Shown: piece by piece, positions 2,193-49,924 of the stretch
How the letters are laid out: every line of letters starts with the position of its first letter
How positions within the stretch are numbered: position 1 is the stretch's first letter
Virus record (IMG/VR): IMGVR_UViG_3300034272_001646
Location: 1 to 55,890 of that record
Reading direction: 5' to 3' (one strand)
Origin: a virus
DNA: 55,890 nucleotides
Translations under genes and position numbers: made by a program
The notes under the pieces: model-generated
The model's database searches: none
The model's input: only the letters and a program-made list of their open reading frames with translations
Told to the model about the DNA's origin: nothing

Positions 2193-5100
2193 CTAAAATG
2201 TTACACTCATCGTACCATTAGCGCTGCCTGTTCCAATATTTATAGAAACTATTTGATATGGGTATACTTTTACTGATACTGAATTTGTCGTAGTACCAAT
2301 ATTACCAGCGTTTCCTGATGCTCCAGGATTTGATGTGCCGGCTGTTCCGGCGGTCGCTCCAGTTCCAGCACTACCTGCTGTGCCAGTATTTCCTGCTGCT
2401 CCTGCGCCTCCTGGATTTCCAGCCGCACCATTTGTAGCTCCAGTTCCAGCTGCTCCTGTTGTGCCAGCATTACCAGCAGCTCCGGCACCGCCTGGGTTTC
2501 CAGCCGCACCATTTGTAGCTCCAGTTCCTGCATTGCCAGTCGCTCCAGCATTTCCTGCTGCTCCTGCACCTCCTGGATTTCCAGCTGCACCATTTGTAGC
2601 TCCAGTTCCTGCATTGCCAGTCGCTCCGGCATTTCCTGCAGCGCCGGCATTACCAGGACTTCCTGCTGCTCCTGGATTTGCTCCAGTTCCTGCCGCTCCT
2701 GTTGTACCAGCATTTCCGTTGGCTCCTGCACCGCCTGGACTTCCTGCTGCTCCTGGATTTGCTCCAGTTCCTGCCGCTCCTGTTGTACCAGCGCTTCCTG
2801 CAGCGCCGGCATTACCAGGACTTCCTGCTGCTCCAGCGTTTGCTCCAGTTCCTGCGGCCCCAGTATTTCCAGCACTTCCATTGGCGCCTGCATTACCAGG
2901 ACTTCCTGCTGCTCCAGCGTTTGCTCCAGTTCCTGCGGCTCCTGTATTTCCTGCGCTGCCTGGTGTTCCTGCATTACCTGAACCACCGGCAGCGCCCGAA
3001 AGAAGTCCTCCATTGCCGCCTGCGCCGCCGTTGCCGTTAGTAGCACCACTTATGTTGCCTGAATTACCCGCGGTACCAGCATTGCCGGCGCCGCTACCAC
3101 CTTGCTTTAAAGTCCAACCCGATGCTCCGCCTCCGCCTCCGCCGCCTCCGCCGCCTCCGCCTACACCAGCGTTGCCAGGAGATCCGGAGTTACCCGCCGT
3201 ACCACCAGCTCCTCCTGCACCACCGGCGCCATTTGTTCCTGGGTTACCAGCATTGCCAGTGGCTCCTGGATTCCCAGCATTTCCTCTTGCACCGCCTGCA
3301 CCACCAGCACCGTTATTTCCTGGATTACCAGCATTGCCAGTGGCTCCTGGATTACCAGCATTACCAGCAGCACCGCCTGCACCACCAGCACCGTTATTTC
3401 CTGGATTGCCGGCATTACCAGTGGCTCCTGGATTACCAGCATTACCACCAGCTCCTCCTGCACCACCAGCCCCATTGGTGCCAGGATTGCCTGTTCCTCC
3501 AATACCACCAGATGTCCCAGCTGTACCACCAGCACCACCAGTTCCTGCAGCTCCATTATTACCGGGATTGCCTGTTCCTCCAATACCTCCGGAAGTACCG
3601 GCCGATCCTCCGGCGCCGCCTGTACCAGCAGCTCCATTGTTACCGGGATTGCCTGTTCCTCCAATACCACCAGATGTCCCAGCTGTACCACCAGCACCGC
3701 CAGTTCCTGCAGCCCCATTATTTCCGGGATTGCCTGATCCACCTGGATTTCCAGAAGTTCCGGCCGAGCCAGCTGCTCCGTTTGTAGCATTTCCTCCAGC
3801 CCCACCAGTACCACCGGTTCCACCTGGAAAATTAGCTAAGGAACCAAACGTTGAAACGTTGCCTGGGTTTCCACTTGATCCCGGATTTCCGTTTGCTGCG
3901 CCAGTCCCAGCATTACCAGCAGCTCCGGCACCGCCTGGATTTCCTGCTGCTCCTGGATTAGCTCCAGTGCCAGCATTACCATTTGCTCCAGTATTTCCTG
4001 CTGCTCCGGCATTTCCAGGGCTCCCTGCTGCCCCTGGATTAGCTCCAGTGCCGGCATTACCATTTGCACCTGGATTTCCTGCTGCGCCGGCATTACCTGG
4101 ATTGCCAGTAGATCCAGCGGTTGCCCCTGTTCCTGCATTACCATTTGCTCCAGTATTTCCTGCTGCGCCTGCATTACCTGGATTTCCTGCTGCTCCAGCA
4201 GTTGCCCCTGTACCTGCGGCCCCTGTTGTGCCGGCATTACCATTAGCACCGGCACCGCCAGGACTTCCTGCTGCTCCGGCGTTTGCTCCAGTTCCAGCCG
4301 CCCCTGTTGTGCCGGCATTACCATTGGCACCAGCTCCACCAGGACTTCCTGCTGCTCCAGCGTTTGCTCCAGTTCCTGCTGCTCCAGTATTTCCAGCATT
4401 TCCATTGGCCCCAGCTCCACCGGGACTTCCTGCTGCTCCAGCAGTTGCCCCTGATCCTGCGGCTCCAGTATTTCCAGCACTTCCATTGGCACCCGCACCA
4501 CCTGCACTCCCTGAATTACCAGTCACTCCGCTACCGCCGCCTCCGCCGCCGCCACCGCCGCCGCCGCAAACGCACCCCCCAAGATTTGCGCTTCCACCAA
4601 AGCCACCATTTCCTCCGCCAGGAGAGCCTCCGGCGCCGCCGGGGGCAGAACAAGGCGCAAATGGGGTGCCAAAACAACCGCAGCCACCGCCCGGACTACC
4701 ACCGCTACCGGCTCCGCCACCGCAAGGTCGGGCTGAACCTTGTCCGCCGCCTCCTCCCGTACCTGCGCTACCGCCAGTGCCACCAGCACCGCCGGCACCA
4801 TTATTTCCTGGATTTCCAGAGTTTCCTGTGGCACCTGGATTCCCAGCATTTCCTCTTGCACCGCCAGCACCGCCGGCACCATTGGTACCAGGATTACCAG
4901 AGTTTCCTGTGGCACCTGGATTCCCAGCATTACCAGCAGCACCGCCAGCACCGCCGGCGCCATTTGTTCCTGGGTTACCAGCATTGCCAGTGGCACCTGG
5001 ATTCCCAGCATTACCAGCAGCACCGCCTGCACCACCGGCACCATTAGTACCGGGATTGCCGGAGTTTCCTGTCGCTCCAGCATTTCCAGCAGTACCACCA

Positions 5101-7564: not shown

Positions 7565-9514
7565 TTAGAATGTCCCGCCGTCGAGGGTTGCGTATACAAC
7601 TGCTGTACCGTTAGACTGAAGCACGAATCCAGTAGAGCCAACAGCTAATTTTCTAAAACCGTTCGAAGAGTTAGCAACTAAAATGTCTTCTGCAGTAACA
7701 GTCGCGAGTCCAGTACCACCGCTTGTTCCAGGCAGTGCAGTCGAAAGACTCAATGTATTCGCTGTGATACCAACCGCGAGTGTCGAGTTCGCAGTAAGAG
7801 TAACGTTAGTCGCGTTCGAAACCAAACCACCAGAGTTTAGGAATGCTTGTAATGTAGCAGTAGTATAACCGGCTGCTGCAGTGTCTACAGTTGTTGTAGG
7901 TTCTGTTTGAGAACCAGCAAAGAGCTTATAAACGCCATCTGTAGCATCACGGAAAAGACCGGTATATTTAGCTCCAGTGGCACCGTATTGACCATAAAGA
8001 CCGATATCAAGAATGTCGGTTGTTGCGTTTCCGTTTGCAAGCTCGATCAGCGAATCTTGGACTGTCAGGTTGGTAGTATCGATTGTCGAAAGCGTACCGA
8101 GAACAGTCAGATTTCCGGAAAGAGAAAGATCTGTAATCGAGAGTGCAGTATTAACATGGAGTCCAGCAGAGTTGACCGTGAGTGTTGAACCAGTGGTAAG
8201 GCCAACTGCATCTGCAGTGACATTAATACCGTTAGCAGCACCAACATGAACTCCAGTCGCGTTAGCTGTAAGACCATCACCGCCAACAACGTTGATACCA
8301 GCGCCATCAACAGAAATACCGTTAGCAGCTTTGGCAAAGACGCCTGAAGTATTCGATACAATACCGTTGTTTGCTACAACAGCAATCGTGGCTGCACCAC
8401 CTTCACCAGATGAGGATCCAGAAATACCGTTACCAGCTGTGATAGTAGCAACATAGTCGCCTGATGTACCCGAACCAAGAGCAACGTCGCCTGAAAGTTG
8501 CGATGTGGCAATTGAAAGTGCAGCAGCATTGACATAAACGCCCGAGGTATTCGAAACAATCGTACCGTTACCAGATACGACATGCACACCTGTTGCGTTC
8601 GAAGCAATACCAGCTCCGGCAACAACAAAAACGCCTGTTGCGTTTGCAGATAGACCGTTATTTGCAATAACGTGTACGCCTGAGGTATTTGAAGCAAGAC
8701 CGCTATTTGCAACTACAGCAATCGCGTCTGCAGAGACGCTGATACCGTTACCAGCACCAACATCAAGAGTTACCTCGCCAGATGTACCGCCACCAGTAAG
8801 ACCAGAACCGGCTACGACTGATGTAATATCACCATCTTGAGGTGTTACCCAGTATACAGCTGTTCCGTTCGATGCAAGAACTTGTCCTGCAGTACCATTT
8901 GTGCCATTTGCATTAAGAGCAACGTTAGTTCCAATATTGATCTGTGTGGCATTTGCTACGAACGCCGTACCAACACTCACAATCGCTGCGTTCACGGTGC
9001 CTGTAGAGAATACACCGGTGGCATTCGCAACAAAAGAATTAGAACCAACGACGAAGTTACCGCCAGAGCCAGCAAGAACGCCGCCGGCAACAGACAGTTT
9101 ATTATTGGTATTATCAAACGTAAAGTCTGCGTCTCCGGCTAATGCGCCAGAATTATTAAATTGAACTTGTGTATTTGAACCAGATACGCCAGAAGTAGGA
9201 GTTTCCCAATAAGCGGCTGTTCCATTTGAACTCAGTACTTGTCCGTTGGTACCCGTCGAACCATTGGCTGTAACTGTTGTCACAACAGCGTTAGCAACAA
9301 TAATCTTGTCGATACCAGAGGTACCATTCGCAACGAGTGCTTGGTTGGCGGTCAGTATACCAGGATTAAATTTACCGGCAATGGTGATCGAAGCACCATT
9401 CGAACCAATAAATAAGTGATCGCCATTTGCTGTAAACGCTAATTCACCGTTAGCTAATGTTGGCGCATCAGCTGTCGTTAACGACCTTTTAATTTGAATT
9501 AAATTGTCTGCCAT
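7565..9514 (-). CDS. tail fibre / virion structural protein
   Basis: This 649-residue protein is rich in Asn, Thr, Gly and Val, starting at ATG 9514 behind AAAGGAA. The N-terminal MADNLIQIKRS and NGELAFTANGDHLFIGSNG resemble the attachment domain of cyanophage-type fibres. Two GQVLxSNGT..YW modules occur at about residues 94 and 215, followed by repeated beta units of the form GI..NATGVHVxAxNGI (about residues 240-430). A DLSLSGNLTVLGT region resembles the same part of the 5571-7316 protein. The C-terminus ends in LDGGTF, a motif shared with neighbouring proteins. It is likely an elongated beta-structured fibre shaft. Confidence 0.8.
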   Translation of the reverse strand: MADNLIQIKRSLTTADAPTLANGELAFTANGDHLFIGSNGASITIAGKFNPGILTANQALVANGTSGIDKIIVANAVVTTVTANGSTGTNGQVLSSNGTAAYWETPTSGVSGSNTQVQFNNSGALAGDADFTFDNTNNKLSVAGGVLAGSGGNFVVGSNSFVANATGVFSTGTVNAAIVSVGTAFVANATQINIGTNVALNANGTNGTAGQVLASNGTAVYWVTPQDGDITSVVAGSGLTGGGTSGEVTLDVGAGNGISVSADAIAVVANSGLASNTSGVHVIANNGLSANATGVFVVAGAGIASNATGVHVVSGNGTIVSNTSGVYVNAAALSIATSQLSGDVALGSGTSGDYVATITAGNGISGSSSGEGGAATIAVVANNGIVSNTSGVFAKAANGISVDGAGINVVGGDGLTANATGVHVGAANGINVTADAVGLTTGSTLTVNSAGLHVNTALSITDLSLSGNLTVLGTLSTIDTTNLTVQDSLIELANGNATTDILDIGLYGQYGATGAKYTGLFRDATDGVYKLFAGSQTEPTTTVDTAAAGYTTATLQAFLNSGGLVSNATNVTLTANSTLAVGITANTLSLSTALPGTSGGTGLATVTAEDILVANSSNGFRKLAVGSTGFVLQSNGTAVVYATLDGGTF

Positions 9515-47852: not shown

Positions 47853-48426
47853 ATGAAGTAAAGGCAGCCTTGACAATTTTTCTACATTTAAATGCATCAT
47901 AATGAAAGAAAGGCTTATACTTCAGCAGCTTCTTGTGGATGCTGGGCCATAGGACACCATCCTCAATCTTCTTGTTCCAATGACCGAAGAACCCGAAGAT
48001 ATCATTGAGGATAATCACCGTCTCGATAGAAATCTCTCGACGAAGATATTGTTTCAGTAAGAAGGGATGTTGCCCATTCTTTACAATAACACAATCATTG
48101 AAATTTGTACATAGTTTTTTTACGTCTTCTTCGAAGATATAAGAAAGAGACTGCTGTCTCTTCAACCATTCATTGTACACTTTCTCTGAGTCATCGCCGA
48201 ACAGATCGCCTATCCATTTTAAATCGCCATCTACAAAGTTGGCAACAAGATATTTGAGTGGATCTTTATGTTTCGACAACTTATAGAACTGATACTTGTC
48301 CTTACGTACATCAAAGCTCGAAGGCTTTGCGCCTATCTTGCCGTTGTATTTGATGTAGTCATAGCTGTCTGTTGTGAAGTGGTTTTTAAGGGCGAGGAAA
48401 GTGGTGTAGCTCTCGAATGGAGTCAT
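47851..48426 (-). CDS. 59: DNA helicase loader gp59
   Basis: This 191-residue protein (T4 gp59 is 217) shows the gp59 pattern: FLALKNHFTTDSYDYIKYNG, DVRKDKYQFYKLSKH, LVANFVDGD, and a C-terminal domain with LNDIFGFFGHWNKK. The loader places the gp41 helicase on gp32-coated forks. Its ATG overlaps the gp33 stop region (4 nt). Gene order gp33-gp59-gp32 is the T4 order. Confidence 0.85.
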   Translation of the reverse strand: MTPFESYTTFLALKNHFTTDSYDYIKYNGKIGAKPSSFDVRKDKYQFYKLSKHKDPLKYLVANFVDGDLKWIGDLFGDDSEKVYNEWLKRQQSLSYIFEEDVKKLCTNFNDCVIVKNGQHPFLLKQYLRREISIETVIILNDIFGFFGHWNKKIEDGVLWPSIHKKLLKYKPFFHYDAFKCRKIVKAAFTS

Positions 48427-48668
48427 ACTGGTAGCTTAGCCCTCTTTGGCATGAAGTTGAGTTCTTCTGCTTCGTCTTGAAGCTTTGCCTTGATACGAAT
48501 GTTACTACGAATGATACTCGCAGCAGCCTCGATCTCGATGTTATTCTTTTCACAATAGTGGACGACGGCATCCATATAATCTAAATCATAATTAATAACC
48601 AGTCGTTCAATTTCTTTAATGAACTTTTCAGAAGTCAATGCTTTCGTTGAAATGACGTCGTCCACCAT
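48423..48668 (-). CDS. 33: late transcription co-activator gp33
   Basis: This 81-residue protein starts at ATG 48668 behind GAGG; an upstream extension in the same frame lacks a ribosome site. EKFIKEIERLVINYDLDYMDAVVHYCEKNNIEIE matches the core helices of T4 gp33, which tethers RNA polymerase to the sliding clamp at late promoters. T4 gp33 has 112 residues; this one is shorter. Adjacent gp59 supports the call. The presence of exact TATAAATA elements around the window fits its role. Confidence 0.8.
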   Translation of the reverse strand: MVDDVISTKALTSEKFIKEIERLVINYDLDYMDAVVHYCEKNNIEIEAAASIIRSNIRIKAKLQDEAEELNFMPKRAKLPV

Positions 48669-48672
48669 AATA

Positions 48673-49251
48673 TCATCCTCTATAAAAAATGTGTGCACCA
48701 ATCTTAGTCGTACGAGCAAACACTCTACCCCATGACGGACTTACGTAGTCAGCGTGGTAAAACTTTGCTCCCTTTGTTACGTCACCGTAATTTCCGAGAT
48801 ACACATGTTCGGCGATTTCCTTTGATTTTGCAAAAGCTACACCGTCACGAATTCTTTTTCCACCCTCACACTTCCATGAAAATTGGCATACGCGCGCAGT
48901 TCTCTGATTGATAACTCCACATGGCGTGCTTGGGAAACGATCGTCTTTTGCGCGGTTCAAAACAACATTGTTTACCGCAATCCTACCTTTATAAGGTTCA
49001 TGGCCTGCTTCGAAGTATGTATTCTCGGCCATGCATTGGATTTGTTTTTTGTCGTAGTTGCTCAGATAGACTGGCTTCTTTACGACCTTTTCTTTTTCGA
49101 TTACCTGAATGACTGGGACCTTTACGATCTTGACTTCAGGTTCTTTGTTTGGTGTAGCCAAAGCCACGCCTGTTACTGCAATGATACCTATGACAAAGCC
49201 TTCGGCCCAGCGTAGATACGGGAAATCTTTTCTAGTTTCGAAAAGTTTCAT
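48673..49251 (-). CDS. SleB-type cell wall hydrolase (endolysin) with N-terminal anchor
   Basis: This 192-residue protein carries a hydrolase_2 (SleB) domain from residue 73: MAENTYFEAGHEPYKGRIAV with E81 as probable catalytic Glu, then VLNRAKDDRFPSTPCGV, CQFSWKCEG and a final IGAHIFYRG. The N-terminus has one hydrophobic segment (about 15-33, AEGFVIGIIAVTGVALAT), which may be a signal anchor. SleB enzymes cut the glycan. ATG 49251 follows GAGGAAG. Sited beside gp33, probably late-expressed from TATAAATA at 49506. Phages of alphaproteobacteria often use this class. Confidence 0.85.
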   Translation of the reverse strand: MKLFETRKDFPYLRWAEGFVIGIIAVTGVALATPNKEPEVKIVKVPVIQVIEKEKVVKKPVYLSNYDKKQIQCMAENTYFEAGHEPYKGRIAVNNVVLNRAKDDRFPSTPCGVINQRTARVCQFSWKCEGGKRIRDGVAFAKSKEIAEHVYLGNYGDVTKGAKFYHADYVSPSWGRVFARTTKIGAHIFYRG

Positions 49252-49267
49252 GTTCTTCCTCTTAGTC

Positions 49268-49447
49268 TCAATGACTTTGGCAAACAGAGACTACTTTACA
49301 GGCATCCCAGCCATATAGTTTTCTGCCGCTATAAGAAGATACACAAGAGAATAACGAAGTATCTTCCATCCATTTCCCTCTTACTGGAAATGCAAAATCA
49401 TTAGTGTTTTCGTCGGTGACATCCGAATGATGCCGCTTTCTAGCCAT
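49268..49447 (-). CDS. possible small ORF (59 residues) upstream of the endolysin
   Basis: An open frame starting at ATG 49447 and ending at TGA 49268 encodes a polar protein with four Cys and no recognised domain. No good ribosome site precedes the ATG; an internal ATG at 49369 has AGAGGG before it. It lies in the stretch between the tmRNA and the endolysin, which otherwise holds only the late promoter and a 5-bp hairpin. Low confidence. Confidence 0.25.
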   Translation of the reverse strand: MARKRHHSDVTDENTNDFAFPVRGKWMEDTSLFSCVSSYSGRKLYGWDACKVVSVCQSH

Positions 49448-49505
49448 CTAAGACTTGAAGTTTTGCAAGAGTCAATGGAGGATTCTAACCTCCGTCGTGA
49501 TATTT

Positions 49506-49513
49506 TATTTATA
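49506..49513 (-). promoter_or_regulatory. T4-type late promoter TATAAATA upstream of the endolysin
   Basis: This exact TATAAATA on the minus strand is about 255 nt upstream of the endolysin ATG, directly after the tmRNA coding piece. It would give a long leader that starts with a GGAGG/CCTCC hairpin. It probably serves the endolysin and maybe gp33-gp59. Confidence 0.6.
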
Positions 49514-49736
49514 CTACCACCAGCGGTTTTTCTGGTGACTCGTAGCACCAGAGATTCAACTGGTAGCAAGTGGCCCGTTCTGTTCCAAGGTGGAGCCATA
49601 CCCGTGTAGATCATGCCGCTAGGCGGATATCTGCAAAGCTATCGTTATCGTTAGCATTTATGTTTAGTGGCACTTTGCCAGGCAATCAGTCTCGAACCGC
49701 CCTATTACACGAAAATCGAATTCCAAGGTCACCCCC
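49514..49736 (-). ncRNA. ssrA: permuted tmRNA, coding piece (5' end at 49736)
   Basis: The piece begins with GGGGGTG, the 5' strand of the acceptor stem, then a D-arm-like CTTGGAATTCGA. The tag frame runs from GCT (49655) to TGA (49611) and encodes ANDNDSFADIRLAA, ending in the AA that tags proteins for proteolysis. Alphaproteobacterial tags also start ANDN. Further hairpins (for example CTGGTG/CACCAG at 49532-49551) probably form downstream pseudoknots. The 3' end is set at 49514 by the late promoter and is uncertain. tmRNA rescues stalled ribosomes by trans-translation with SmpB. Confidence 0.9.
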
Positions 49737-49819
49737 ATCATCTACTATGCAAACACGCTTCGGCTTCCTGGCATGTTCGGGATACGATTATAACCGTATC
49801 CGGATTAATGCATAGTAGA
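49737..49819 (-). other. intervening (processed) segment of the permuted tmRNA
   Basis: Between the acceptor piece and the coding piece lies an 83-nt spacer. Perfect 12-bp inverted repeats at 49739-49750 and 49810-49821 extend the acceptor stem into a hairpin; inside is a second hairpin, GGATACG/CGTATCC. This matches the precursor loop removed when two-piece tmRNAs mature. Confidence 0.85.
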
Positions 49820-49880
49820 TGGTGGAGGTGCGGGGAGTCGAACCCCGGTCTTTCCGCCTTTATTGTTGATTGTCAACAAC
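49820..49880 (-). ncRNA. ssrA: permuted tmRNA, acceptor piece (3' end with CCA at 49820)
   Basis: CGGGG TTCGACT CCCCG (49847-49831) is a perfect T-arm, followed by CACCTCC, A and an encoded CCA. CACCTCC pairs with GGGGGTG of the coding piece, giving a 7-bp acceptor stem that includes a G3-U70 wobble, the alanyl-tRNA-synthetase identity element. Upstream is a TTGTTGA/TCAACAA hairpin. Having the 3' acceptor piece encoded before the 5' coding piece is the circularly permuted order known from alphaproteobacteria. The 5' limit is approximate. Confidence 0.9.
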
Positions 49881-49881
49881 T

Positions 49882-49924
49882 GATATACTATATATACAAT
49901 GTTTTTCTTTAATTGTACATGCTT
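49882..49924 (-). promoter_or_regulatory. box-type promoter of the tmRNA (AAGCATGTACA + TATATC)
   Basis: AAGCATGTACA (49924-49914) is 26 nt from a -10-like TATATC (49887-49882). The same box and spacing precede other genes at 51940, 52148, 52581 and 52838. It overlaps the end of the nuclease gene. Transcription would start just before the acceptor piece. Confidence 0.65.

Follow-up and report, generated by a model that had tools for sequence, protein, structure and literature searches.

A circularly permuted tmRNA gene in a lineage of T4-like phages, with evidence for exchange of its spacer

Introduction

Does a T4-like phage carry a working ribosome-rescue RNA of its own, how long has it held the gene, and what becomes of the spacer that splits it? 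These questions are raised by the minus strand of the window analysed here, the whole of a linear 55,890-base IMG/VR virus record. From the sequence alone, an initial annotation had described a two-piece tmRNA of alphaproteobacterial style and suggested its capture from such a host, with the phage perhaps controlling trans-translation when tmRNA or ribosomes of the host run short. Phage-borne permuted tmRNA is already known, and the gene in the window is a further example. What looks new is comparative: the exchange of the intervening sequence (IVS) and the presence of HNH genes within it.

Results

A permuted tmRNA gene on a T4-like contig

Judged by its gene content, the contig is a fragment of a T4-like phage, as had been supposed. 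PHROG matches identified the T4-like core families gp32, gp59, gp33, gp6-type baseplate wedge and PhoH, together with further T4-type families (DNA end protector, tail tube and baseplate). Genes around the locus follow the order gp32, gp59, gp33, cell-wall hydrolase (PF07486), tmRNA, SNase-like nuclease, DUF932 protein, exonuclease and PhoH. The nearest isolates by gp6 infect Caulobacter, Stenotrophomonas, Sinorhizobium, OM43 and SAR11. The host of this phage was probably an alphaproteobacterium.

ARAGORN reported a permuted tmRNA at 49520-49915 (minus strand) with the tag ANDNDSFADIRLAA as the sole tRNA-like gene in the whole window; in a related 128.8-kb contig the tmRNA was likewise the only tRNA-like gene. 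The Rfam model RF04321 (tmRNA_permuted) matched 49881-49611 with 89 bits against a cut-off of 47 (E 8e-16). RF01849 (alpha_tmRNA), the check suggested in the initial annotation, aligned over the whole model (positions 1-355) at 49923-49569 and scored 54.2 bits, a narrow margin above its cut-off of 50. The alphaproteobacterial type of the gene was thereby borne out, and the model scores together with the conservation in relatives exclude a chance origin of the call. The gene and its surroundings are laid out as follows.

49890..49919, minus strand: putative tmRNA promoter, from sequence; -35 TGTACA at 49919-49914, 17-bp spacer, -10 TATATAT at 49896-49890
49820..49884, minus strand: acceptor piece (upstream hairpin, T-arm, acceptor 3' strand, A73, CCA), from RF04321/RF01849; 5' end approximate
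49847-49831, minus strand: T-arm CGGGG-TTCGACT-CCCCG, read directly
49830-49824, minus strand: acceptor 3' strand CACCTCC, read directly
49822-49820, minus strand: encoded CCA, preceded by A73, read directly
49737..49819, minus strand: IVS of 83 nt, presumably cut out during maturation, from sequence and from swaps in relatives
49567..49736, minus strand: coding piece (acceptor 5' strand, D-arm-like part, resume region, tag, 3' region); 3' end approximate
49736-49730, minus strand: acceptor 5' strand GGGGGTG, pairing with CACCTCC over 7 bp, with G3-U70
49611..49655, minus strand: tag reading frame ANDNDSFADIRLAA plus stop TGA, from ARAGORN
48423..48719, minus strand: gp33-like late-promoter transcription coactivator (phrog_254, E 2e-17), a neighbour common to phages Mosig and Melnitz

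All the parts named earlier could be read directly in the sequence: the acceptor piece with its T-arm and CCA lies ahead of the coding piece, the two strands of the acceptor stem pair as described, and the IVS is closed by an inverted repeat with 12-bp arms, ATCTACTATGCA/TGCATAGTAGAT, the first A of which belongs to the CCA. The tag frame follows the resume site and ends in hydrophobic-Ala-Ala, here a ClpX-type LAA, before the stop TGA. An Asp-Ser insertion relative to the short rhizobial tag is one possible alignment, but 14-residue ANDN...RLAA tags exist in bacteria, for example ANDNVDMGAVRLAA in Microvirga. The 3' end had been put at 49514, which is too distant; the mature end lies near 49569-49565 according to the relatives and to the RF01849 match, which ends at 49569. 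Relatives diverge or bear inserted genes just beyond ~49567, and 49566-49520 is a variable stem-loop.

The 5' end probably lies near 49884, directly past the -10 motif. In half of the relatives the motif is TATAAAT, a form that has a likeness to the T4 late promoter TATAAATA as well. Among 48 distinct upstream sequences, 46 keep T[GT][GT]AC[AT] and TATA[AT]AT exactly 17 bp apart, with 32 different spacers between them.

Conservation across the lineage and a phage-only tag

As relatives we took the 80 loci returned by a search with the gp59 of the window. ARAGORN found a permuted tmRNA in 53 of them and BLAST found tmRNA pieces in 7; the remaining 20 end before or within the gene. All 60 relatives with enough upstream sequence possess the tmRNA. 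Among the 53 ARAGORN-positive relatives 37 carry the tag of the window, and the rest have seven other tags, all with LAA or VAA ends. The exact 14-residue peptide is shared by 58 viral contigs; a search of 84,980 bacterial and archaeal genomes did not find it in any, and the ANDND pattern with its fixed upstream context was absent from 385 alphaproteobacteria. ANDND is known in bacteria in another context (ANDNDLALAA), so the phage-only claim is limited to the exact 14-residue tag.

Base pairing is maintained across the relatives. Compensatory changes were seen in acceptor pairs 4-6 and in the T-stem, and G3-U70 was present in 19 of 19 distinct alleles. One acceptor table demanded 7/7 pairs and so cannot count as independent support for pairing. 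An automatic acceptor scan also returned three imperfect stems, which inspection traced to the wrong GGG run having been picked.

The tmRNA region gave only a 34-nt match in a nucleotide search of 50,697 phage records, and RF04321 had no match in two phages close by gp6, Cr30 of Caulobacter and phiM12 of Sinorhizobium. Mosig has its tmRNA directly beside gp33, and the tmRNA of Melnitz comes before gp33 and gp59. Because the tag is phage-only and the whole lineage has the gene ahead of gp33/gp59, an arrangement that synteny extends to Mosig and Melnitz, the tmRNA is on comparative grounds an old core phage gene and not a recent capture. Its remote ancestry is likely to be alphaproteobacterial.

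Individual copies show rearrangements. L234:4091-4907, on a contig shared with L130, holds a full tmRNA, after which come a 2OG-Fe(II) oxygenase gene, truncated, and part of another coding piece bearing the same tag. In L164 an oxygenase gene is inserted at the tmRNA 3' end.

The spacer behaves as an exchangeable cassette

The 70 distinct lineage-like alleles contain 37 IVS families, defined by 75% identity over 70% of length for spacers of ≥25 nt only (65 of the 70 alleles). A single tag was found with 17 of these families. Conversely, a near-identical 122-nt IVS occurs with four tags and two acceptor-piece types, and several families each sit on two acceptor-piece types. Three relatives, L210, L211 and L219, are 98-99.6% identical to the window across the downstream spacer (~99%) and gp33/gp59, yet their IVSs are unrelated to that of the window and of other lengths, which argues for replacement of the IVS as a block. 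The IVSs of Microvirga display gradual drift, with 60-99% mutual identity. A long spacer is not required, since some alleles, such as those of L006 and L136, have one of 5 nt.

The helix that closes the IVS is nearly always retained through these replacements, by compensated pairs, with on average 10.2 of 11 positions paired compared with 6.8 when the 3' ends were dealt among families (500 shuffles, maximum 7.5 pairs). A T-arm-like hairpin was present in 4 of 32 shorter spacer families (0.2 expected; 4 reached in 0 of 300 shuffles), and in two families it abuts the closing helix directly, in tRNA fashion. Taken from sequence comparison, the IVS behaves as a cassette swapped whole between related phages. 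Plain homologous recombination through the conserved flanks, instead of homing, could give much of the same pattern.

The idea that the IVS is a genome-wide dispersed repeat was discarded: outside tmRNA spacers we found no full-length copy except one, an 82-nt L140-type spacer (98.7% identical) at L049:747-825, just downstream of the tmRNA of that phage. Small reading frames were noted in the IVSs of L042, L013, L057 and L176 (Melnitz), the L042/L013 frame being cysteine-rich (CSC...CCGTC). Those of L042/L013, L057 and Melnitz matched no family in Pfam or PHROG.

HNH genes within the spacer

In three relatives an HNH homing-endonuclease-like gene lies inside the IVS, which is about 470-520 nt long, of an otherwise intact tmRNA.

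L246:4326-4751: HNH gene in the tmRNA IVS (phrog_655 homing endonuclease, E 2e-11)
L267:1233-1691: HNH gene in the tmRNA IVS (phrog_655 homing endonuclease, E 2e-13)
L291:3001-3408: HNH gene in the tmRNA IVS, a 63%-identical relative

The encoded proteins share the motif MKH[IM]HHxxPxxLGGT..., and a TATAAATA-type motif stands ahead of the HNH gene within the IVS. The L267 and L291 alleles also keep the acceptor pairing with G3-U70 (GGGCCTG/CAGGTCC in L267, GGGCCCG/CGGGTCC in L291). Past its tmRNA, L267 has a further HNH gene on the opposite strand. The window's own IVS contains no homing-endonuclease gene. The IVS would tolerate such insertions because predicted processing removes the spacer. 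Homing endonucleases may drive IVS exchange, and ordinary recombination could have brought the HNH genes into the IVS. In the open-access literature we found no description of IVS exchange or of HNH genes in a tmRNA spacer.

A structured leader RNA next to the tmRNA

In many relatives the 268 nt between the tmRNA and the hydrolase gene show 94-99% identity, although the gp59 of these phages reaches no more than 76-95%. This region starts at the TATAAATA motif, ends at the hydrolase ribosome-binding site and includes two features.

49506..49513, minus strand: T4-type late promoter motif TATAAATA before the leader RNA, outside the tmRNA, from a sequence scan
49252..49500, minus strand: conserved structured leader RNA (~240 nt) upstream of the cell-wall hydrolase gene, from conservation and covariation

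The leader folds into a 55-pair structure, 98.1% of whose pairs are kept in 23 sequences. Compensation was seen in 16 of the 55 pairs compared with 7.9 in shuffles, and in 60 cells compared with 16.2. Its core motif occurs in 108 viral contigs, and a hydrolase-type ORF of 184-211 residues follows it in 68 of 68 testable distinct cases. Searches against Rfam up to E 5 gave no match. In L344 the leader is present without a visible tmRNA. The leader is a candidate regulatory RNA that may act in cis on a lysis gene.

Discussion

The reading that we consider probable is that of a genuine circularly permuted tmRNA of a T4-like phage, processed by the host and with a spacer that tolerates foreign DNA. 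One precursor would be transcribed from the sigma70-like promoter, and host RNase P and 3' processing would excise the spacer, leaving the acceptor and coding pieces joined by the acceptor stem. Host alanyl-tRNA synthetase would charge the tmRNA through G3-U70. A search for SmpB in the window and in ten related contigs (44-129 kb) found none; the host would have to supply this protein to deliver the tmRNA to stalled ribosomes, where the phage-only tag with its ClpX-type LAA end would be added. With the spacer discarded, the site would accept foreign DNA, and whole spacers would be swapped, some with an HNH homing-endonuclease-like gene.

The missing SmpB would also suit a decaying or decoy tmRNA that competes with host tmRNA for this protein and so inhibits trans-translation. 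There is precedent for such an effect: a TLD-only, tmRNA-like molecule without a tag, similar to the one in phage DS6A, was reported to inhibit tmRNA and so trans-translation (PMC4131195). A few relatives do have damaged or duplicated copies (L234, and L360 with an altered resume region). However, throughout the lineage the tag frame is unbroken and closes with hydrophobic-Ala-Ala, and a pure decoy would not need a tag; both the acceptor pairing and the promoter are conserved. We therefore think this explanation unlikely. Recent capture of a host ssrA by this phage, the origin proposed in the initial annotation, would account for the alphaproteobacterial type (RF01849), but every relative examined, like Mosig and Melnitz, has the gene at an equivalent syntenic position, and the exact tag is in no cellular genome searched. 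Capture from a present-day host is accordingly disfavoured, and of the readings considered here it is the one we credit least.

The diversity of the IVS might instead reflect fast neutral drift of discarded sequence, constrained by the closing helix and involving no exchange. Bacterial spacers vary too, as in Microvirga. Drift is nevertheless hard to reconcile with unrelated spacers of differing length between nearly identical flanks, or with near-identical IVSs such as that of 122 nt accompanying different tags and acceptor pieces, and we judge it very unlikely. Returning to the genuine tmRNA with a tolerant spacer, we tentatively extend it by a joint claim that is possible, if somewhat doubtful: the IVS would be a home for selfish DNA, invaded by HNH genes and by helix-bounded cassettes, some of them tRNA-shaped; homing would drag the flanks along and reshuffle tags, and tRNA-type processing would do here what self-splicing does for introns.

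The findings matter in that a large T4-like lineage, seen only in metagenomes, retains a ribosome-rescue RNA of its own among its core genes. Its tags are absent from sampled bacteria, which turns the purpose of phage trans-translation into a testable question. An RNA spacer excised by ordinary tRNA-type processing is further suggested as a new niche for homing elements.

Comparison with known systems

Permuted two-piece tmRNAs have been published for the T4-like phages Melnitz (OM43) and Mosig (SAR11) in a study that counted 53 such structures among phage isolates and suggested that they may help to keep the hijacked machinery running or to recycle protein of the host (PMC9004378). The window resembles both phages in combining a permuted tmRNA of alphaproteobacterial type with a T4-like genome and a position upstream of gp33/gp59. 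It differs in its tag and in the structured RNA downstream of the tmRNA, which is a different one and has no Rfam riboswitch match; swappable spacers and spacer HNH genes are not described there (PMC9004378).

The tmRNAs of alphaproteobacteria (RF01849/RF04321; PMC11915505) share with that of the window the gene order and tRNA-like domain, both models scoring above cut-off. In contrast to the bacterial genes, the window is just above the RF01849 cut-off and has an exact tag absent from cellular genomes. Its 83-nt IVS is longer than most of those in 31 bacterial genes (median about 34, range 10-112), a sample of mostly top-scoring genes that may be biased to short spacers.

The roseophages DSS3_MAL1, RpAliso, RcXuper and MD18, phages of alphaproteobacteria, have a permuted tmRNA as well, but their ssrA genes have other tags and lie in or near tRNA clusters, not beside gp33. 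In RpAliso (L125), RcXuper (L372) and MD18 (L374) the permuted tmRNA is present and unannotated in the deposited genomes. Separately, we noted candidate circularly permuted tRNA genes, in which a T-arm and acceptor 3' strand come first and, 5-13 nt further on, an acceptor 5' strand with perfect pairing and a D-arm follow, in L125 (Ruegeria phage RpAliso) at 3250 and 3396, L117 (minus strand) at 3684, L003 (minus strand) at 3872 and L058 (plus strand) at 8534.

The nearest parallel to the HNH-bearing spacers is found in tmRNA genes with a group I intron, where the T-loop region is interrupted by a self-splicing intron that holds a LAGLIDADG homing-endonuclease gene (PMC11915505). Some relatives of the window similarly have a homing-endonuclease gene inside the tmRNA gene. 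Unlike the intron-borne gene, theirs sits in a spacer that processing would remove, so that no ribozyme would be needed.
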